38,825 bases of DNA, from the NCBI GenBank assembly GCA_018333535.1, contig JAGXTA010000112.1, forward strand, positions 1-38,825, read 5' to 3'. This DNA comes from Deltaproteobacteria bacterium. GTDB taxonomy: Bacteria; Desulfobacterota; BSN033; UBA1163. This document shows, in pieces, positions 10,510-24,350 of the stretch; positions within the stretch are counted from its first letter, which is position 1, and each line of letters opens with the position of its first letter. Both the position numbers and the translations under genes were made by a program. The notes below the pieces were generated by a model. The model was given only the letters and a program-made list of their open reading frames with translations. It was not told where the DNA came from and made no database searches.

Positions 10510-11147
10510 CACTATTTAGAACCGCAAACTTTTTTAGGAATGACATCTATGAATAGCGTTGGCACAACACCCTAGCGCGAAATCAACATTCATCTTTAGT
10601 TGGTGCATCCTGAATTATACGGCGGGGCCTCCAGATTTCTTCGGGTCTTGGTGTTTCCAACTCCACGGGATAGGTGAAAGTTGCCAGCTCACTTCTTTCA
10701 AAAGAGAGCCCATATGCTACGGAAAGTCGACGCATCCACCGGGCTTGTCCCGCTTCAAGTTCGAGATCACTAGGAACTGGCATTCCAAGCACATCTGGTG
10801 AAATTGCTCGCCGAAACAGCCCCCCTGAAAATGGACGCATAACAGCAACCTTGTAAGGATACTCACAATGCCCGCCCCCGCCGAAGATCACTCTGATCTG
10901 ATCTAGCTGGCTCTTCACTATGAGTTTCTGCTTAGCCCTGGCAAGTGTTTGTTCGGTACCTCGCATCAACTCCTCATGGATTGCGTTTCTGGCTTCCATC
11001 AATGGAGGCTCCACTCCACCACTTTCCTTCCTCTGCCTCCAGGTCTCCAAAGCCTCCCAGTCCGTTCTCCTGAAGGCCGAAGCAGCGCGGCGTTCGATGA
11101 AGCTGGATCCCAGTGGCAGTACATTGCCATGAAGATATTGACATCCG

Positions 11148-12233
11148 CATAAATAATGCAATATAATAGAGACATCCTGAAAGGGGGTGTCTCGATGCGA
11201 CCTAAAGGATCTCCAGCATTGTTGGAAGAACGTAGACATCGTGTGATTACGTTCCTGAAACAGAGGCTTTCGCTTCATGAGATTGGCCGGCGCATCGGTT
11301 GCCATGCGAGCAGCGTGATGCGATGGCGCAACGCCCTGCAATCGGGCGGGCAAAAGGCACTCAAAGCCAAACCGACGCCAGGACGGCCACCCCGACTGAC
11401 CTTGAAACAGAAAAGACAGCTTGTTCATCTCCTGACCCAAGGAGCCATAGCCCATGGATATCGGACGCAGTTGTGGACCACTCAACGGATTGCCGATCTG
11501 ATCGAGCGTCGGTTGGGAGTGAGATATCACCGCAATCACGTGGGCAAACTCCTCCACCAGATCGGTTGGAGCCACCAGAAACCAGAACGCCGGGCCGTGG
11601 AACGCGATGAGGCGGCTATCGAGGCATGGAAACGATCTGTCTGGCCCCGGGTAAAAAAAACGCCGCAAGGCTGGCAGCCCATCTCGTCTTTATCGACGAA
11701 TCGGGCTTCCTCTTGATTCCTTCGGTCCAAAAGACCTGGAGCCCTGTGGGGCAAACTCCTATCCTGGTTCATCGGTATTCTCATGATCGGATCTCGGCCA
11801 TCTCTGGGATCGCCGTCAGCCCGAAATGCTTCCGTTGTACTCTGTACTGTCATCTCTATGAGGACAATATCCATGGTGAAGAAGTGGCGGCGTTCCTACG
11901 TCAGCTTCTGCGACAAATAAGGGGCCATCTGATTGTCTTGCTGGACAATGGGAAGATTCATCGTGGCGACCCGGTCCAGGAGCTTCTTGCCTGCACATCT
12001 CGTTTGCACTTGGAACCCTTTCCGCCTTATGCCCCAGAATTGAACCCGGATGAGGGCGTATGGAATCATCTTAAACGAAAACTGGCCAATGGCCGTCCGG
12101 ATACTCAGACCGAGCTAATGGATGTCTTGGCTGATGAAATCTGCCGCCTTGCTTCTTCTCAGTCACTTTTGCAGGGATGCATCCAGCAGTCTGAGCTCCC
12201 CCCTTTTTTACCTTAAATGTTGCATTATTTATG
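11148..12233 (+). mobile_element. IS630-family insertion sequence
   Basis: CATAAATAATGCAA (11148-11161) and TTGCATTATTTATG (12220-12233) are perfect inverted repeats. IS630 elements duplicate TA, and a TA lies inside each end (11150-11151, 12230-12231), so the real ends may be the inner AATAATGCAA arms. The element is about 1.08 kb, carries one transposase and interrupts the ATPase gene. The inverted repeats are intact, and the transposase is full length apart from the frameshift. Confidence 0.85.
11195..12216 (+). CDS. IS630 transposase, needs -1 ribosomal frameshift
   Basis: The first frame runs from ATG 11195 to 11716: an HTH region (LSLHEIGRRIGCHASSVMRW) and RKxxP-like winged segment with HQIGWSHQKPERRA. 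The second frame carries the DDE core: FIDESGF (first Asp), LLDNGKIHRG (second Asp) and ELNPDEGVWNHLKR (Glu). They join by a -1 slip at the A8 run 11653-11660, giving VKKNAARLAAHLVFIDE and about 340 residues, the family's usual size. IS630 members are known to use such frameshifts. AAGGGGG precedes the ATG. Confidence 0.85.
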
Positions 12234-13182
12234 AGGCGTTCTATAAGTGAGATGTTCACAATTATCGTCTCGCAAAAAAATAAAAACACTTTGGTCTACT
12301 GTCCCAGCCCCAGTATCCGAAAACAAGTAAATTCCAGGACTAGAAACGCGGGAGCGGACAAAACCCTGTACATTGGCGCTAGCCTCGGGGTAGATAAAGC
12401 ATGCATCCTTAACTGTGAGGTCCTCTTTCTTGCTGATCTTGGTCAGTAACCTTTCGACTTCTGCAACATCGACAACCGGATGCCTGTTGAGATCGTCCAT
12501 GAGAACCCATGCCTCAAAAAGAACCTGGTTATACAGTCGATTCACCTCTGGACGTTCGGCATCAGCCACAGGGACAGCGAGATTCACCGCAACATAGTCA
12601 TCCGCACGCATGCCAAAGCTCGGAAGTCGTTGTCTCACCTGTCCCCGGATCTCACCGAAGGCACCAGCCAGGAAATATACAGCACAGTTGCGAACGAATG
12701 CGGCCAATTGATTTACGTCCGATTCCCCGAGGGCATTCCGATATGGATCTAGCACAGGATCATGCCACTGACGTAGAGCGACCTTTTCAAGCGCATGCTT
12801 CAGGTGATACAGTCCGTTCGCGTGATAGTCGGACCCAGGATTTTCGACGTGGCTGAGTTTTCCATTTCTCATCAATAACACACTTGAGATTAGGAAGGGA
12901 TGCTCCATGCGTTCAGATCCAGCGGGCAGGTAAACCCACGCCTTGTTGGTAATTACGTCTCGACATACACACTTGGAATACGCAGTCCCAAAATCAAACC
13001 CGATCTGGACGAAATACGGCTCGCGCTCCGAACTGCTTTTTCGTCCAACCTCAACCTGTGGCACTGAAACCGTTTTCGCCTGTTGCGGAGGAGAATAGGT
13101 AGCTATGTATTTCTCGCTCTTTTTTACAAAGAGCTTTTCCTTAAGTCTCTGAAGAAAACCCTTCCAATTGCTCATGGATTTT

Positions 13183-16100
13183 TCACTGGTTCTGTGTTGC
13201 GGGCGTCCCAATCACCTGGAAGACACCAGCAGCCACGGGCGACTGTTCCATGTCGACCTTGGATTTCTCATTTAGTTCCCGAAGCCGCTGCTCCTTGTTC
13301 TCCTTTGCAGTTCGGAGTAAGCCCTCTGCTGGGCGAATCATTCTATCATCGCCCCTTTTTTGTCGTAAGGTCTCCAGGCGCTGCTCGTGTTCAGTGATGC
13401 GTCGGTCGAAGATGGCCCGGACACGCTGAGTCTTAATTTGGTAGATAGTATCGTTCTCTCCCTGGAACTCCTCCACTGCTAACGAAAACTGCTCTGCCAA
13501 GCTTTCCTCCAATGCATCATGGGCATGGGACAGAGCCTCTCGGTCGCAATCCACATAGTCCCAGTCGCCTCCTTTGCGAAGCAGGTGCTGAATGAAGGCC
13601 TCAGATTCTTCCGGTGGATAGTTCGCACAGTCCGCAAGCGACCGCACTCCATAAGCAAGCCTTTCCTTCGCGTAAAGACCCTTCAGCTTCCAACGCTCGA
13701 TCCTGTAGCAGTAATCACCAGGCTTCAAATCGGGATGGCTGATCCGTACTGCTGACAGGTTAAAAAAACTGTGCGCGCGGTCGTGGTTAACCTTTGTGAT
13801 CCAGCGGATTAACGGAGAGAGATGGTTGATGAAATAGATGCCGGATCGCTGGTTGAGTGGGAGACGTTGCAGCACCTCCCGGCGGAAGGTAATGCTGAAC
13901 TCGCGTTGCCGGAGCGGACGCGCACTCAGAGATCGGTCCCCGCCGATGAAATCCCCCAGCGATGAGCGGGCTTCTTGGATCAGCCGGATTCGGAGGCAGC
14001 CGTCAAAGGGTGTGTTGTGATTGACTTCACAGCCCTGAAATTCTCGCTCAAAGAAATCGGTGAGATAGTCCTCCAGTTCGTCTGGCTGGAGATATCGGCC
14101 TTTCTCCCGGTCCTCCTCGATCTTGTGTTGAACGTAATCAGAAAAGGCGATGAGCACGTCTTCTGATTCTTCGAGCGCCTGGATCTGCAGAAGCCGAGAG
14201 TGAATCACGCGCTCGGTTTGCTCCATTAGGTGCAGTTCCTCCCCTGCCGTCAATTCTTTGCTCAGGAGTTCCACGGTCAGCTGTTGCACCTCTCGGCCAA
14301 TCACGGCTTCGAGGTCTCCGAGACTGTTGGCGAAGCGTTCAAGCTTGGAATGCAGACGATCGTAGAGCCGCTCCTCAATAGTATCCTTGACCTTGAAGTT
14401 GACCACGGAGATACGTTTTGCCTGCTGTCCAACGCGGTCGATGCGTCCGATCCGCTGCTCGACTCGCATGGGGTTCCAGGGTAGGTCGTAATTGGCAAGC
14501 ACCCGGCAGAACTGGAGGTCGATCCCCTCGCTGCCAACCTCGGACGAAAGCAATACCCTGGGGCCACGCGGATCCTTGAACCGGTCGATCTCCTCCCAAC
14601 GTTGTTCGTTCGGCACGCCGCCGTGGATTACGGTTACGCTAACTCCATCTGACATCAAGCGGCGTCTCAGATAACTAAGCGTGGGGCGGTAGTAAGCGAA
14701 GACAATGACCTTCTCGTCAGGCACCACTTCAACGAGCATCCGGCGCAGTTGGTAATACTTGCTGTCATTCTTTTCGAAGTCATAGGCAAGGAGCCGACTA
14801 ATCTCTGACACGCCAAGCTCCTCTTTTTGGTCCTCGTTGAAGAGATCGTCAAAAACTTCTTCGCCCATAGCCTCATCAAACAGGTCCTGGACTTCCCCAA
14901 ACCGCCCATCCCGGATCTCTTGCGCCAGCACCGGCAGGCAGCTCGCGGCACGCAATTGCAGGCCCAGTACCTGAAAAACGTGAAAGGGTCGACTGTCCTG
15001 GCGGCATCTCCGTCGGACGATTCCAAGGATCGCTTTATAGAGGGACATCTCCTCGGAGGAGTACTCAACACTCAGGACCACTGGGTCCCGCATGGGTCGG
15101 TTTTCCTTCACCTGGACTCGCCGGGTTCGGTTCACGTAGCTCCCCAAAAGATTTAGCTTCTCAGCAAGGTCCTGGCATCTTGAAAGCTGCGCTTTGTCAT
15201 CTGGATTGAGTTGTTCAAGTGTTTCAAGAAACTGCCTGAACAGGGGTGACTGGCTGATGAACCGGCTTGAACCCATCCCGACAACGGCCTGCTTTAGGAG
15301 GACCATGTCTATAGGGGTGCGTGCCAAAGCATTTCCTGCCTGTATAGCTGGACGGTTTGCTTGGAGCAATTCCTCGAACATCCCATGTGACTCGAAAAAG
15401 CTCTCATCCACAAGGCGGAGCAGACTGTGGAGATCGGTATTACTATTGTTCACCGGCGTAGCAGAGACACAGAGAACCGAGCTGGCAGCAATCGCCAGGC
15501 TCGCACCGAGATGGAATGTTGCTGTCCCCGGAGTTCTCATATAGTGAGCTTCATCGAAAATTACCATGTCGAAAGGATCATAGCCCAATGACCAGTGACG
15601 CAGCTCGCGCAGGAACGCCGTTTTTTCAGAACCACCAAGTTCCTCCTCTGGATGCTCTTTTAGTAGACGCACCTCGTTTTTTGGAGGACGAAGTCCTGTA
15701 TAAGTGGCTATTAAGATAAAAGGATGTCCAGGCCCATTGGACTTAAGATCGGAGACTTCGCGCTGCAACTCCACGAAATCGACGATTCGCGCGTCAAACA
15801 TAAACTTAGTACGAAGTTCCTCCCGCCACTTCTCGGCTAGGATCTTCGGGCACACCACCAGCAGCCTTTGCGCCTGACGGCGAGCCTGCAGTTCCATCCA
15901 GATCAGGGCAGCCTCTATTGTTTTGCCAAGACCTACCTCGTCCGCGATAATCAGCCGCTCGGTAGGTGAGTTGATGAACTTTAGGACAGGTTTGAATTGA
16001 TAGGGATAAAAATCGATCTGTGCCGCTTCCATCGAGTAGATTACCTCATGGAGCGTACCTTTGAGCTTTTCATATGTGATAAGACGCTGAAGATCCCGGA

Positions 16101-16341
16101 CCTTACCAAAATGCCCTCTTCGCAACTGCTCGACCATTGAGCCTGGAGGCGGTATCGCATCCAGAGAAGACAGCGGACGATAACTGGTTCCGCCACCGGG
16201 ATAAAATAGCTGCACCATAATGTGCGGACCTGCTTTACGCCATTTGCCAGTATATTGGCCTGGCTGGCCGGGATTGTGCCGGTCGATCACCCAATCGCCA
16301 GGTGAAAAAGGAATGTCGCACTTGGTAGGATCAGGACACAT
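13183..16341 (-). CDS. SNF2/RapA-like DNA helicase, defence-island type
   Basis: A 1052-residue superfamily 2 ATPase. Motif I is ADEVGLGKT (Lys140), motif II is DEAH (263-266) and motif III is SATP. The C-terminal helicase half has HGGVPNEQRW, SSEVGSEGIDLQ and QRIGRIDRVGQ (about 555-650). The last 350 residues are charged and coiled-coil-like with no recognised domain. It should translocate on DNA; a nuclease domain is not seen. It follows hsdR by 103 bp and precedes the ATPase by 8 bp. Such helicases occur in DISARM, Dpd and other defence clusters, but the usual partners of those systems are missing. Confidence 0.85.
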   Translation of the reverse strand: MCPDPTKCDIPFSPGDWVIDRHNPGQPGQYTGKWRKAGPHIMVQLFYPGGGTSYRPLSSLDAIPPPGSMVEQLRRGHFGKVRDLQRLITYEKLKGTLHEVIYSMEAAQIDFYPYQFKPVLKFINSPTERLIIADEVGLGKTIEAALIWMELQARRQAQRLLVVCPKILAEKWREELRTKFMFDARIVDFVELQREVSDLKSNGPGHPFILIATYTGLRPPKNEVRLLKEHPEEELGGSEKTAFLRELRHWSLGYDPFDMVIFDEAHYMRTPGTATFHLGASLAIAASSVLCVSATPVNNSNTDLHSLLRLVDESFFESHGMFEELLQANRPAIQAGNALARTPIDMVLLKQAVVGMGSSRFISQSPLFRQFLETLEQLNPDDKAQLSRCQDLAEKLNLLGSYVNRTRRVQVKENRPMRDPVVLSVEYSSEEMSLYKAILGIVRRRCRQDSRPFHVFQVLGLQLRAASCLPVLAQEIRDGRFGEVQDLFDEAMGEEVFDDLFNEDQKEELGVSEISRLLAYDFEKNDSKYYQLRRMLVEVVPDEKVIVFAYYRPTLSYLRRRLMSDGVSVTVIHGGVPNEQRWEEIDRFKDPRGPRVLLSSEVGSEGIDLQFCRVLANYDLPWNPMRVEQRIGRIDRVGQQAKRISVVNFKVKDTIEERLYDRLHSKLERFANSLGDLEAVIGREVQQLTVELLSKELTAGEELHLMEQTERVIHSRLLQIQALEESEDVLIAFSDYVQHKIEEDREKGRYLQPDELEDYLTDFFEREFQGCEVNHNTPFDGCLRIRLIQEARSSLGDFIGGDRSLSARPLRQREFSITFRREVLQRLPLNQRSGIYFINHLSPLIRWITKVNHDRAHSFFNLSAVRISHPDLKPGDYCYRIERWKLKGLYAKERLAYGVRSLADCANYPPEESEAFIQHLLRKGGDWDYVDCDREALSHAHDALEESLAEQFSLAVEEFQGENDTIYQIKTQRVRAIFDRRITEHEQRLETLRQKRGDDRMIRPAEGLLRTAKENKEQRLRELNEKSKVDMEQSPVAAGVFQVIGTPATQNQ

Positions 16342-16444
16342 AATCTCAGCTCAGAATGGATTCGTGATTACTTAGGATTCAGTCCTTTTCTCTAAAAGAA
16401 GCCATGTGTCTCCGAGGACAGATTTGGCTCTACAACTGCCAGCT

Positions 16445-19400
16445 TCATGCATTCACCCATTCTTGTGAAAGCACTTCCGCTTGCTCCAGGACAGTCTGTG
16501 TTGCTTTTTCCTGTTTGTCAGGCGGATAACCGTACTTCCTTAAGATTCGTTTCACAATTACGCGGAGCTGAGCGCGCACATTTTCTCGCATGGTCCAATC
16601 AATCGTCACATTCTTCCGCACCATTGCAACCAGCTCCCGTGCAATAGTACGAAGGATGTTGTCCCTCAGCACTTTCACCGCACTGTCATTTGTCTCCAGT
16701 GCATCATAGAAGGCAAGCTCCTCCTCGGACAAATTTAGCGCTTCGCTCCGTGTGTCCGCCTGCCGCATCTCTTTTGCAAGTGCAATTAATTCCTCTATCA
16801 CCTGTGCGGCCTCGATCGCCCGGTTTTGGTAACGCCGGATCGCCTGTTCCAGCATCTCGGCGAATGATCGAGCCTGGACTACGTTCTTACGCCCGCGAGC
16901 CCTAATCTCTCCAGCAAGGAGCTTTCTGAGAAGCTCTACGGCCAAGTTCCGCTGGGGCATTGAGCGGACCTCAGCAAGGAACTCATCGGAGAGAATCGAA
17001 ATGTCAGGTCTTTTGAGGCCTGCGGCCGAGAAGATGTCAACAACCCCTTCAGGAGCGACAGCCCGGGATACGATCTGCCGGATCGCGTGATCGAGGTCCT
17101 CCTCAGGTTTCATTTCACTTGGTGCTCGTTTTGCCAGTACGGCACGAACAGCCTGGAAGAAGGCTACGTCGTCACGGATGTGTAGAGCTTCTTCATGTGG
17201 AACCGCTAAGGCGAACGCCTGGGATAATTCCTGCACCGCCCGTTGGAAGCGTTCCTTTCCTTCTACCTGTGCAAGGATGTGCTCCTGTGCCGGTGGAAGG
17301 ACTGACACGCGTTCCTCTGGAGAACCGGAAACCCACTTGGACCAGTTAAAGCCGTGGAACAGGCCGCAACAGATTTCATACTTCTCAAGCATGAGCGCAA
17401 CTGCTTCCTCCTGGTCGATTGCAGTCTTCCCGGTTCCTCCGCTCTCGGTGTAAGTGGCGAGAGCCTGTTTGAGTTCGTGTGCCAACCCGAGATAGTCCAC
17501 GACAAGCCCGCCAGGCTTATCGTGGAACACACGATTGACACGGGCGATTGCCTGCATCAGGCCGTGCCCACGCATTGGTTTGTCGACATACATCGTGTGC
17601 AGTGACGGGGCGTCAAAGCCCGTAAGCCACATGTCGCGCACGATCACCATCTTAAGCGGGTCTTTCGGATCACGAAACCGGTTGGCAAGCATCTCGCGGC
17701 GTTGCTTGTTGCGGGCGTGCTGGGCCACTCGCGGGCCTTCCGACGCATTCCCTGTCATGACAATCTTGATTGCTCCTTTGTCGTCGCCTACGTCGTACCA
17801 TGACGGTTGGAGCTTCACAATCTCATCATGTAAATCCATACAGATACGCCGGCTCATACAGACGACTAAGGCTTTTCCTTCCATTGCCTCAAGCCGCTCT
17901 TCGAAGTGCGAGACAATGTCCTGAGCAACAACCTTCAGCCGCTTCTCGGCCCCGACAATTTTCTCAAGCTGTGCCCACTTCGTCTTAAGTTTTTCCTTCC
18001 GCTCGATCTCCTCACCCTCGGTGACTTCCTCAAAATCCGGGTCAATTTTTGGCCTCTGGGACTCATCCAGCTCAAGCTTCGCCAGCCTGCCCTCGTAATA
18101 GATGGGAACCGTCGCTCCATCGTCTACCGCACGCTGGATATCGTAAATGCTGATATAGTCTCCAAACACTGCCCGGGTATTCTTATCCGTAAACTCAATT
18201 GGCGTGCCGGTGAATCCGATAAAGGAGGCTTTCGGCAGCGCATCCCGCATGTGCCGTGCATAGCCGTCAATGAAATCGTACTGACTGCGGTGGGCTTCGT
18301 CGGCGATCACGACAATGTTTCGCCTTTCGGAAAGCGCGGGGAGGTGATCGCCTTTTTCCTCGGGGAGAAACTTCTGAATCGTTGTGAAGATGACACCTCC
18401 AGCTTCAACACGCAGCTTCTCGCGCAAGTCGGTCCGGCTCTCCGCCTGTGCCGGCGGTTGGCGCAATAGTTCCTGGCATCGCGAGAAGGTCCCAAAGAGT
18501 TGATCGTCAAGGTCATTGCGATCTGTGAGAACAACGATGGTCGGGTTCGCCATCTCCGGCTGGCGGATGATGCGGCCAGCATAGAAAGCCATGGTCAGGC
18601 TTTTCCCCGATCCCTGCGTATGCCAGACGACGCCAATCCTTCGATCTCCGGGTTTGCCACCGTGTTCAAGCCTTGTTTCATAACCGCCCGGTGGTTCCGC
18701 AACCCGACGGGCCTCCTCGCGTAATCGCGCAGCGCGCAGAGTTTCCTCCGCCGCTATTTTTACAGCATGGAACTGATGGTAGCCGGCCAATTTCTTGACG
18801 AGCGCACCGCCAGAATCCTCGAATACAATGAAATCGCGAAGCAGATCAAGGAACCGCCGCTTCTCTAAAATCCCTTCCAACACGACCTGCAGCTCGGGCA
18901 AGTGGGGATCGGCCAGCGACTCACCTGAGATCGTCCTCCAGGGTTTGAACCACTCCCGGCCTGCCGTAAGCGTGCCTATGCGTGCTTCCATACCATCGGA
19001 GACGACAAGCATCTCGTTGAAGCTGAAGAGACCTGGCAACTCACTCATGTAAGTCTGAAGCTGTTGAAAGGCTGTCCAGATGGTGGCGTTCTCGTCGGCA
19101 GGGTTCTTGAGTTCGATGAGTGCAAGCGGAAGGCCGTTAATGAATAGCACCACGTCGGGCCGCCGGGTATGTTTGTTTTCGCTAACAGTGAATTGGTTGA
19201 CGGCAAGCCAGTGGTTGTTGTCAGGGTCCTCGAAATCGACAACGCGAGCTTGTGCGCCCGCTATGGTCCCATCAGGACGTTTGTATTCGACCGTCACCCC
19301 ATCAATCAGCAAACGATGGAAGGCCCGGTTGCGCGCCTCCAGTGTCGGCCCTTCAGGCCGGATGATCTTGCGGAATGCATCTTCGAGGGCCTCAGCCGGA

Positions 19401-19591
19401 AGCTGCGGATTGAGGCGTGCGAGCCCCTGACGCAGGCGGTCTCCCAGGAGAACCTGGGAGTAATTACTCCGCTCCGCCCAAAGCTCCCCCGGCGCGATGT
19501 CGGGTCCATGCTTGATCATGTAGCCGAGGCGCTCGAGCCAGGCAAGAGCGGCTTCTTCGATAACAGACTCAGAAAAAGGGTTGTCGCTCAT
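16445..19591 (-). CDS. hsdR: Type I restriction enzyme, R subunit
   Basis: A 1048-residue motor-nuclease that translocates DNA and cuts unmodified molecules. The N-terminal nuclease has Asp146 (RRPDVVLF) and Glu160-x-Lys162 (LIELKNP). The motor has GSGKS (Lys330) and [10 protein letters not shown] (431-440), and GTPIEF/RVNRVF segments further on. The helical C-terminal part (about 850-1048) resembles the domain that docks on HsdM. Its ATG overlaps the upstream HEPN-type gene's stop (ATGA), so translation is coupled. Confidence 0.95.
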
Positions 19592-20235
19592 TCTTGATCC
19601 TCCTCTTCGGTCGCGAGGTTAATTAACCGGCTACCCAAGTCCCGGTAAGCGTCATAATCCACAGCAGAGAGCACCTCACTGACATAATAACTCTGCTCGC
19701 CTACATCTACCATCCCATACTTACGGTCAATTGCTCTGTTATACGCTCCGTCAGGTGGAGGTGGAGACGGAGGCGAACTATCGGTAATGGCCTTCCCTAA
19801 AAGTAAATTGACATCAACGACATCGAAAAGAACCGAGAAGATCCAAATTGCTGCCTCTCGAATAATCTTCAGTACGTTCTTCTCAGGGGTGCCCTTTTGC
19901 CCTCCATGGTATTGCTCATTGCGATGATCGTGCGCCCAGATGATATGGCTTTTTTCAACAGCCCAGGTGAGCCCCCGCGATGCAAGTTCATAATCGAGGA
20001 AGTCCAATTTAGCGTGATAATTATTCAGCCATCTTTCGACATCTGCTCTGGGGTAGGTGCGACCGCTACGCTGAATCGGGTTGAGCGTGAGATACGTAGT
20101 GATGGCCACATCAATCGCGTTGTCAAAGCTTATCAATGCGATTCGCCGATCAAAGTCCTCCCCCTTATTTAGATGCCCCTCGGCATGTACGAGTAACTCA
20201 AAAGGGCCATTCGCCCAAGGCGGCAAAGAATTCAT
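19588..20235 (-). CDS. HEPN-type protein inside the type I R-M operon, candidate RNase
   Basis: A 215-residue, mostly helical cytoplasmic protein with the motif HRNEQYH (Arg105-Asn-x3-His110), fitting the R-(N/D/H)-x-x-x-H signature of HEPN ribonucleases. The flanking helices ([15 protein letters not shown] and [16 protein letters not shown]) fit a HEPN helical bundle. A Ser/Pro linker (about 153-163) leads to a C-terminal tail with tyrosines. ATGA overlaps on both sides join it to hsdS and hsdR. Host-guard RNases such as PrrC sit in R-M operons and cut tRNA when restriction is disabled; a similar role is inferred. It could instead be an accessory DNA-modification factor. Confidence 0.7.
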
Positions 20236-21617
20236 AAATTGGCCTCGGAGATAAAGCGCTCAGCATCCTTCACCCGCAGCTGACCGGAGATGAGTCTGGG
20301 CAATAGAGCGTCCCGCAGGGCAGCGAGGGTGTCGTTGTTGACCTTATTTTGGCACAACCGAAGAAGCAGCGCTGACACTATCTTATCAAATTCGTCCATA
20401 ACTACTCTTGGTGGAATGGGAATCTGGATTGAACGCAGATACGTCACAGGACGTGCGATTGAGGGCACACCGGATGATGAAGTGTTTGCAAGTAGTTTGT
20501 GCTGACCTTCGAGGGAGTTGAAATAAAGTGCAATGAAAGCTGGGCTGACCTGCGACAGGTCACAGCGCATAAAGAACTGGCGCTGTGAAATAACGTACCT
20601 TTCATAACGAGATGTTTTTGGTATAAAGGCGGCTTGGCCTATGTTTCCCGCATGTGTAAAGATAACATCCCCGCGTTGAACTACCGCGTTGGCTAGCCTC
20701 ATCGCGTGCTCTTGGGTAATGAAGTTGAAAGTGTTGTCTTCCATAACAAACCCATTCAGGTGTTGTCCACTGATAATTGGAACGCCCTCAGGGACGAAAG
20801 TTTCGACCTTGATGGACGACCCGAACGGGCCCATTGCAACCCGTTCCGCCACTTCTTCTATTCTCTTGACAGCCCACCCCGCCGGAATCTCTCCCAACTC
20901 TGAATCCTCTAATCTGTCAGGGAAAAGGTCGTAAAGGTGGGCGGGGAGGCCGGGTAGGGTTTGGCCTCTTCCCCAGCGGCTGTTCATCTTAGTCCGAACG
21001 GGGTCGAAATCCACAAACCACGACTTAAAAATCGCCCGTGCAATTGCTTCCAGGGTCTCATTCATCCGCCGGTTTAGCTCAATCTTGTCAACCAACGTGC
21101 CGAGGATGTGAGCAATAGCGCGTTGTTCGGGGAGGGGCGGCAGTGGAATCTCAATCGTACGCAGATACGTCACCGGCTGAGCGATTGATGGAACGCCGAC
21201 CTGAGACGTATTAGCAAGGAGCTTGTGCCTACCCTCAGGTGTATTGAAATAGTAAACGACAAACTCAGGTATTGCACGTTGACGGTTACAGCGCATATAG
21301 AACTGGCGCTGAGAAATGACATAACGTTCGTATTCCGAGCTTTCTGGAATGTACGAAACCTGTCCAATGTTACCAGCGTGCGTGAAAATAATGTCGCCTT
21401 TTTGCACATTAGCGTTCTTAAGGCGATTTGCGTGTTCTGGGCTCAGGAAGTTGAATCCGGATGTCTCATCAAGCCTGAAACCGTGAAGGTGTTGCCCACT
21501 AATGACAGGCACGCCCTGCGCTACAAATGTCTCGACTTTAATCGAAGAACCAAACGGCCCCATCGCGACCCTTTCGGCGACTTCATCGATTGTTGCGGTG
21601 TCCCACTCACCCGCCAT
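20232..21617 (-). CDS. hsdS: Type I restriction enzyme, specificity subunit with two near-identical TRDs
   Basis: A 461-residue DNA-recognition subunit. The two target-recognition domains (about 12-160 and 254-402) both begin VAERVAMGPFGSSIKVETFV and both end in the PSIA.PVTYLR, LPP/IPP pattern. They are roughly 70% identical by eye. The central conserved helix is about 163-215 (LPEQRAIAHILGTLVDKIE) and the second one about 403-450. Each TRD reads half of the split site, so the two halves should be the same or nearly so. AAGGAG lies 8 bp before the ATG; the gene lies 59 bp after the yhcG-like gene. Confidence 0.92.
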   Translation of the reverse strand: MAGEWDTATIDEVAERVAMGPFGSSIKVETFVAQGVPVISGQHLHGFRLDETSGFNFLSPEHANRLKNANVQKGDIIFTHAGNIGQVSYIPESSEYERYVISQRQFYMRCNRQRAIPEFVVYYFNTPEGRHKLLANTSQVGVPSIAQPVTYLRTIEIPLPPLPEQRAIAHILGTLVDKIELNRRMNETLEAIARAIFKSWFVDFDPVRTKMNSRWGRGQTLPGLPAHLYDLFPDRLEDSELGEIPAGWAVKRIEEVAERVAMGPFGSSIKVETFVPEGVPIISGQHLNGFVMEDNTFNFITQEHAMRLANAVVQRGDVIFTHAGNIGQAAFIPKTSRYERYVISQRQFFMRCDLSQVSPAFIALYFNSLEGQHKLLANTSSSGVPSIARPVTYLRSIQIPIPPRVVMDEFDKIVSALLLRLCQNKVNNDTLAALRDALLPRLISGQLRVKDAERFISEANL

Positions 21618-21676
21618 ACCTCAACTCCTTCGGTCTTGCCTCGATAGCATTTTTGATCTCGTCCGTTCCGCTGTGT

Positions 21677-22784
21677 TCACCCATTGCCGACCTCTTTGAC
21701 CTTTTCCTCGAGGAAACGCTGGATTTGCTCTTTCTTGGGGAGTTCGAGTTGGTACTTGGAGACAAACAGTTTGTTGTCCATCCCTGCAAGGGCGTACTCA
21801 ACAAGGACATGGTCTTTCTGGGTGCAGAGCAAAAGGCCAACAGGCGGGTTATCGCCATCGCTCATCATGTTTTTGCGGTACCACGTCACGTAGGTGTTAA
21901 GCTGGCCGAGGTATTCATGTTTGAATTCATCCACCTTTAATTCAACTAAAACATGACACTTAATAACCCGATGGAAGAAAACCAAATCGACAAAGCCATG
22001 GGCTTTACCGATGAGAATACGCTTCTGTCGGGCTTCGAAACAGAATCCGTGGCCCAGCTCCAGGAGAAAGTCTTGAATTTTATCGAGCAGAGCATCTTCG
22101 AGATCGGATTCACCCATGACTTCCTTTGATCTGAGCCCCAAAAATTCGAAAATATACGGATCTCGGATCATAAGCTTGTGCTCGGACCTTTCCGCGGTGG
22201 ATTTGATTAATTCAGCGAGCTTCTTCTTGTTGTGCGAAAGGCCAGACCGCTCGTAATAAAGAGTGGCGATTTGTCTTTTGAGCTCCCGCACCGACCAGTT
22301 GCCCCGGATGCATTCAATTTCGTAGAAGGTGCGTTTGAGGGGATCATCAAGATCAACAATAAGTTCGATGTGACTGTAAGAAAGACGTTGGAGAATGGTC
22401 TTCGGCGGAATCTCCAATTGTGGGGACACTGTCCCCATTTTTTGAAGGCTCACAGTTTCAATGGGTAACTGTTTCTTCAATTGTGCGGACAGTGCCCCCA
22501 CAATCCCCGGATATAGCCGATAAAGGCGCATGTAACGATAAAGCTGGCGGCGATTGCAGTTACTGATGTTCAATCGCAAAAGGCGTTTTGCCAGTTCGCT
22601 CAAAAGTTTGTCACCATATGTGGCACGATCGGCTCCCCGCAGTTCATATTCGGCGATATAGTAGCCGATCATCCAGTTACGAAGCGTCAGGCTGATGTTG
22701 ACCGCTTTTCCGGCTTGAGCCGCAAGATGTTCGTGCACATGCCGAATTGCGGCAACCAATTGGCTGAAATTGAGGGCTTTGTTT

Positions 22785-22795
<11 letters not shown>
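21677..22795 (-). CDS. YhcG/DUF1016-family PD-(D/E)XK nuclease
   Basis: A 372-residue protein. The N-terminal half (about 10-170) is the helical DUF1016 N-domain; the C-terminal half is a nuclease with GFVDLVFF (Asp270) and VLVELK (Glu285, Lys287), plus Glu255 as a further possible ligand. YhcG-type proteins are frequent neighbours of type I R-M systems and their role is unsettled. It overlaps the end of hsdM by 11 bp, so translation is coupled. Confidence 0.85.

Positions 22796-24350
<1,555 letters not shown>

Follow-up and report, generated by a model that had tools for sequence, protein, structure and literature searches.

What do a large SNF2-type helicase and a chaperone-like ATPase do side by side behind a type I restriction–modification operon, and do they form a defence system in their own right? 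The question arises from a contig of 38,825 nucleotides from a deltaproteobacterium (JAGXTA010000112.1, assembly GCA_018333535.1), the whole of which is referred to here as the window. An earlier note on this DNA had suggested that the two genes might be a defence module of an undescribed kind, and perhaps an add-on to type I restriction–modification. We found no description of an SNF2–Hsp70 pair in the full text of open-licence PMC papers.

Gene content of the locus

The helicase gene occupies positions 13183–16341 on the minus strand and is intact. Its product is, as first described, an SNF2/RapA-like protein of 1052 residues with an SNF2 core and a helicase C domain; it is of the RapA/BrxHII type, and the best PADLOC model is DrmD (PDLC02623, 688 bits). 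RapA is the nearest solved structure both by sequence and by fold. The long C-terminal part had been thought to hold no known domain, but the sequence match to RapA extends to profile position ~838 and a model of the helicase (pLDDT of 78) aligns with RapA across the whole chain (Foldseek E value of 1.7e-34). All eight catalytic positions checked, which lie in Walker A, DEAH and motif VI, are without variation among the 25 copies compared. Comparison with the copy at a related locus (L035) gives a dN/dS of 0.08, indicating that the helicase is under purifying selection on a long branch; the corresponding values are 0.12 for HsdR and 0.24 for the 5′ part of the ATPase gene.

The ATPase gene is adjacent to the helicase gene on the same strand, as reported in the earlier note, although the spacing is 7 bp rather than 8 bp (the helicase stop codon ends at 13183 and the ATPase ATG is at 13175). 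An Hsp70/actin-fold gene is indeed present, but it is not intact: between 12243 and 11137 it is split by a transposable element on the plus strand (11138–12242). The 5′ part (12243–13175, minus strand) carries the phosphate-1, connect-1 and phosphate-2 motifs and scores 370 bits with the ATPase HMM, and the 3′ part (10583–11137, minus strand) carries subdomain II and the adenosine motif GGGG and scores 225 bits. The insert of ~1.1 kb shows a TA duplication and imperfect terminal repeats and has a transposase in two overlapping frames (11156–11716 and 11626–12216), from the motifs of which we take it to be IS630/mariner-like. The window ATPase was identified through the intact copy in L035, which is uninterrupted at the same point and 94% identical (93.9% in amino acids for the 5′ part). 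The 3′ part has 97% nucleotide identity to L035, and its frame is open with a single stop, at the end. Because both parts still match the family HMM and the 3′ part stays open, the insertion looks recent. With the ATPase split in this way the module has probably lost its activity in this genome, to which the helicase alone may still be useful.

The type I operon that the pair was said to follow is complete and lies upstream on the same, minus, strand. It comprises the N6-adenine methyltransferase HsdM (22785–24350; PADLOC MTase_I, 770 bits; Pfam N6_Mtase), the specificity subunit HsdS (20232–21617; PADLOC Specificity_I, 410 bits) and the 1048-residue restriction subunit HsdR (16445–19591; PADLOC REase_I, 1100 bits; Pfam HSDR_N, SWI2_SNF2 and T1RH-like_C). 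The operon also holds a YhcG/DUF1016 PD-(D/E)XK nuclease (21677–22795, minus strand; PADLOC candidate PDC-S02) and, between HsdS and HsdR, an ORF of 215 residues (19588–20235, minus strand) for which our searches gave neither a family match nor a solved-structure relative; it contains an RNxxxH string that we presume to be of the kind found in HEPN nucleases. At the place of YhcG, L035 has a 381-residue gene, 21% identical to the YhcG nuclease, and a 168-residue gene. The synonymous divergence between the window and L035 over 10583–24350 is a mosaic, with values of ~0.12–0.15 in HsdR and the ATPase 5′ part and ~0.5 in the helicase and HsdM, which points to recombination within the island. L035 is 100% identical to L036 over 12,628 bp, and the two bins are labelled Chloroflexi and Deltaproteobacteria; either one contig was binned wrongly or a transfer took place very recently.

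Fold of the ATPase

Pfam gave no useful family match for the ATPase, and a search of solved structures by sequence gave a weak result. The fold was assigned by Foldseek and VIA-align. A model of the L035 protein made from a 22-sequence alignment (pLDDT of 86, pTM of 0.82) has the nucleotide-binding fold of DnaK (Z of 27.9, r.m.s.d. of 3.2 over 314 residues). The structure alignment, A2, omitted L051, which has a very long N-terminus, and rows from outside the related-locus scan. Residues D64, K71, E267, D290, G400 and G401 are the same in all 29 copies; from the Hsp70/actin motifs we take D64, E267 and D290 to be catalytic and G400/G401 to belong to the glycine-rich adenosine motif. The model and the 29-copy alignment together identify the protein as an Hsp70 nucleotide-binding domain with its catalytic residues. 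A C-terminal substrate-binding domain (SBD) is absent, as the Hsp70 alignment occupies residues 57–471 of 497 and leaves no room for one. The domain scan recognised no nuclease domain in either the helicase or the ATPase.

Recurrence and co-divergence of the pair

A scan of a genome collection gave 34 loci, 29 of which fall in the Hsp70-paired clade by helicase HMM score. Removal of the duplicate L036 leaves 28, and because L045 and L047 end inside the helicase, 26 could be tested for a partner. The same ATPase family lies directly downstream of the helicase in 24 of these 26 (in one it is cut after 98 residues), and the pair is therefore not peculiar to the window. The other two are L060, which has no such ORF, and L053, which has a different Hsp70-like ORF downstream. 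The order in L053 (L053:3384–5516) is helicase, an ORF of 308 residues and then a more canonical Hsp70-like ORF (a weak match, E value of 1e-4), possibly an independent replacement of the ATPase partner that came with a helper gene. The spacing of helicase and ATPase is between −67 and +45 bp except at one locus, where it is 125 bp; in L074 the gene order is swapped. The distance matrices of the two proteins are strongly correlated (Mantel r = 0.889 for 28 pairs; none of 9999 permutations reached this value). The pair is a conserved, co-diverging unit.

The pair also occurs on plasmids. Seven of 128 matching plasmid records were fetched, five of which have an Hsp70-type partner (with the gene order swapped in one) and two an Hsp90-type partner. 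Intact pairs are found, for instance, on plasmids of Leptolyngbya sp. BL0902 and Shinella sp. PSBB067, and in L037 and L063. Searches that started from the ATPase matched 8 of the 395 genomes searched in the window's phylum, and 4 of 294 in another phylum. Among the new genomes reached in this way the helicase is adjacent in three; G093 has fragments only, at a contig end, and in G214 (L195) the ATPase is truncated next to an IS21-like element and the helicase is missing. Broken copies are also seen in L046, where the helicase is in two frames, in L072, where it is in pieces, and in G273 (L071), which holds a remnant. The neighbourhood search that the earlier note had proposed thus finds the pair in many phyla, with and without type I restriction–modification.

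This distribution bears on a more ordinary reading, in which the two proteins are a housekeeping pair for transcription or repair, with RapA-like recycling of RNA polymerase aided by a chaperone-like helper, and simply ride in defence islands. Such a role would suit the closeness of the helicase to RapA and the lack of a recognised nuclease domain in either protein. It sits poorly with the patchy occurrence of the ATPase among the genomes searched, with the copies on plasmids and viral contigs, with the position of the pair inside restriction operons (see below) and with its frequent inactivation (the window, L046, L072 and G273), and we regard it as unlikely.

Defence systems beside the pair

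The surroundings were compared at 33 loci with useful flanks, counting the window and L035 once and including L196–L198. A recognised methylation-based system lies within about three genes of the pair in at least 13 of the 33, a lower bound since the scan covered a part of the neighbours; none was recognised in the other 20. Type I restriction–modification adjoins or encloses the pair in the window/L035, L037, L043 and L063. BREX genes are found near it in L038 (PglX, PglZ and BrxA), L047 (the end of PglX, PglZ and BrxL) and L061 (BrxB, BrxC, PglX and PglZ), type II methylases in L045 and L070, a IIG methylase together with a DpdE-like helicase in L058, Hma genes in L072 (HmaB/HmaC) and L044 (HmaA), and a DrmMII methylase in L069. 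At three loci the pair is inserted into the operon, in the HsdS–HsdR interval in L043 and L063 and in the brxC–pglX interval in L061. What the operons next to or around the pair share is a DNA methyltransferase. When matches to the methylase family PF02384 in 20 other genomes were assigned to loci by contig coordinates, six fell in the fetched loci, against 0.53 expected from 87 matches in 73 Mb (P = 2e-5); this enrichment over genome-wide density includes any general clustering of defence genes.

The idea of an add-on to type I restriction–modification is too narrow for this range of neighbours. If the pair were a set of accessory subunits dedicated to type I systems, the loci where it adjoins or lies within type I genes would be explained, but not the equally close BREX (L038, L047 and L061), type II (L045 and L070) and IIG (L058) genes, the Hma-like (L072 and L044) and DISARM-like (L069) neighbours or the loci with no recognised system. 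Among the 33 loci the pair is not tied to type I systems, and we consider this reading improbable.

A family of 413–454 residues with weak matches to Argonaute models (60 bits in L038 and 54 bits in L061) was observed in two BREX-type loci and one DISARM-like island (L038:5568–6809, L061:19313–20677 and L071:8494–9843).

An Hsp90-type partner in sister helicases

Sister helicases, ~30% identical, have an Hsp90/sacsin-type neighbour instead of the Hsp70-type one. This partner is present in eight of eight loci of the sister clade (L078–L084 and L087), and PADLOC TmtA models match all five of the Hsp90/sacsin-type neighbours scanned; they match neither the window ATPase nor six intact relatives. 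Within this clade, L084 has an insertion in the Hsp90-type gene, TmtA is split into three ORFs in L083, and the helicase at L081:5605–9168 has an N-terminal Swt1-like HEPN domain (Pfam PF18731).

A first tree of the helicases, with 47 rows, had long branches. The second tree, of 43 rows, leaves out the DpdE of L058, the second helicase of L062, L085, L087, L060 and L053 and adds two DrmD rows. In this tree the Hsp70-paired and Hsp90-paired helicases form one clade (support of 100/100), in which the partner need have changed only once. The Hsp90 group has support of 99/97 and the Hsp70 group a modest 86/67. L085, which was near the Hsp90 group in the first tree, has a IIG methylase after the helicase and, like L060, neither an Hsp70-type nor an Hsp90-type partner. 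When loci on viral contigs were filtered for a helicase HMM score above 350 bits or the presence of a partner gene, six of 80 belonged to the family, one with an Hsp70-type neighbour and five with a TmtA-type neighbour (on the opposite strand in one case). A tblastn search of phage records gave three distant helicases.

Proposed explanation

Taking these observations together, we lean towards the view that the pair is a horizontally mobile, defence-associated two-gene module, made up of a RapA-type SNF2 dsDNA translocase and a dedicated ATPase consisting only of an Hsp70 nucleotide-binding domain. We infer that the pair has anti-phage activity. Judging by the SNF2 and Hsp70 families, it would combine ATP-driven movement on DNA with a nucleotide-timed switch. 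Self DNA would be marked through methylation by the host system, and the helicase would load on incoming DNA that lacks the modification, or on proteins attached to such DNA, and then move along the DNA. The Hsp70-type ATPase could be a clamp or a coupling switch, timed by its nucleotide, through which the motor is assembled with either its target or the complex of the neighbouring system. Since the module has no recognised nuclease, it would either block phage replication or transcription by translocation or hand the DNA to the effector of the neighbour. This mechanistic part of the explanation is tentative and may well be wrong.

The presence of an Hsp90/sacsin-type (TmtA) ATPase at the same place beside the sister helicases suggests that a chaperone-type conformational ATPase is needed rather than one particular protein. 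The earlier note had likened the pair to a sensor that couples the state of a DNA motor to assembly, and the swap of an Hsp70-type for an Hsp90-type partner makes such a sensor somewhat more likely. A broader reading is plausible, although we stop short of calling it probable: chaperone-coupled DNA motors may be a class of their own, so far unrecognised, in which one RapA-type lineage has paired with an Hsp70-type or Hsp90-type ATPase and is slotted, as a mobile cassette with an effector or sensor role, into methylation-based immune systems that are unrelated to one another (type I and type II restriction–modification, BREX, Hma and DISARM).

The strict adjacency and co-divergence of the two genes would also be expected of an abortive-infection pair in which the Hsp70-type ATPase restrains a toxic helicase until phage proteins titrate the ATPase, and chaperone-linked phage sensing has reportedly been seen in a bacterial NLR-like protein. 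In the window, however, the helicase is intact and conserved (dN/dS of 0.08) although the ATPase is broken, a state that an antidote role for the ATPase would make dangerous (though the insertion may be recent), and L060 keeps the helicase without a partner. We therefore give abortive infection little credence.

If the pair is a translocase–ATPase module of the kind that we propose, an orphan helicase and ATPase that annotation tools wrongly label as part of a DISARM system find an explanation. One lineage of defence translocases would then use chaperone-type ATPases of the Hsp70 and the Hsp90 kind interchangeably, and the pair would offer a tractable two-gene system in which to ask how such ATPases sense DNA motors or assemble them on invading DNA.

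Comparison with known systems

The helicase resembles DrmD of DISARM class 1 in being an SNF2/RapA-type helicase of ~1050 residues in a methylation-based defence context. In agreement with the earlier note, no DISARM or Dpd partners were found among the eight window proteins scanned (drmA, drmB, drmC and drmMI being absent), and the MZB domain of the DrmB type had no match on the window's contig. A DrmB search of 247 genomes of the window's phylum gave six matches. Two of the loci located in this way, L090 and L094, are of class 1 DISARM: each has DrmA, DrmB and a large methylase together with an SNF2 helicase. Their helicases prefer PDLC02621 (1380 and 1117 bits) to PDLC02623 (177 and 193 bits) and fall outside the Hsp70/Hsp90-paired clade in the 43-row tree (100/100); the DrmD label fits the window helicase, but its family is thus not DrmD in the DISARM sense. 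That the helicase is the DrmD of a class 1 system otherwise absent from the window, as the full-length match to PDLC02623 and the arrangement in G282 (the pair and then a DrmMII-type methylase, with DrmB-type and DrmA-type genes on the opposite strand) might suggest, is very improbable given this separation, the presence of an MZB/DrmB-type match near the pair on the same contig in only two of 21 genomes (the one in L058 looking DruE-like) and the fixed Hsp70-type partner, DISARM having to our knowledge no Hsp70 component.

According to two papers, the BrxHII helicases of BREX type 3 and the BREX-related and ARMADA helicases are RapA-like, with an N-terminal Tudor-like domain, an SNF2 core and C-terminal α+β domains, and are associated with PglX-type methylases (PMC12839542, PMC12458937). 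The helicase described here shares the RapA-like architecture and the PglX-type association, but the PADLOC BrxH models reach 219 bits on it compared with 688 bits for the best model. The searched text of PMC12839542 makes no mention of Hsp70, Hsp90, chaperone or heat shock, and that of PMC12458937 no mention of Hsp70, chaperone or Tiamat. Nor does the helicase belong to Hma, as the HmaA model gives 154 bits against 688 bits and the HmaA of L044 lies outside the helicase clade.

CnuD of CoCoNuT, as portrayed in PMC11090510, likewise places an Hsp70-like nucleotide-binding domain in a restriction-linked operon. It differs in having an SBD and degenerate Walker motifs and in working with McrB/McrC-type proteins, whereas the present ATPase has an invariant active site, no SBD and an SNF2 helicase as its partner. 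Protein B of the PADLOC candidate PDC-M61 weakly matches the ATPase (E values of 1.8e-6 in the window and 2.3e-9 in L052), but the matches are partial and absent in L055, and the 25 best of 50 helicase matches do not include PDC-M61A.

Tiamat (TmtA), which we take to be a single-gene Hsp90-like defence system, offers another likeness: a chaperone-type ATPase, Hsp90/sacsin-like, stands beside the sister helicases in all of the sister-clade loci and on five viral contigs (L099–L103). The partner in the present pair differs in being an Hsp70 nucleotide-binding domain, a fold other than that of the GHKL ATPases. The position of TmtA beside the sister clade suggests that Tiamat may often be one member of a pair, as it would be if the chaperone-coupled class of motors is real, and a helicase partner of Tiamat is worth seeking.
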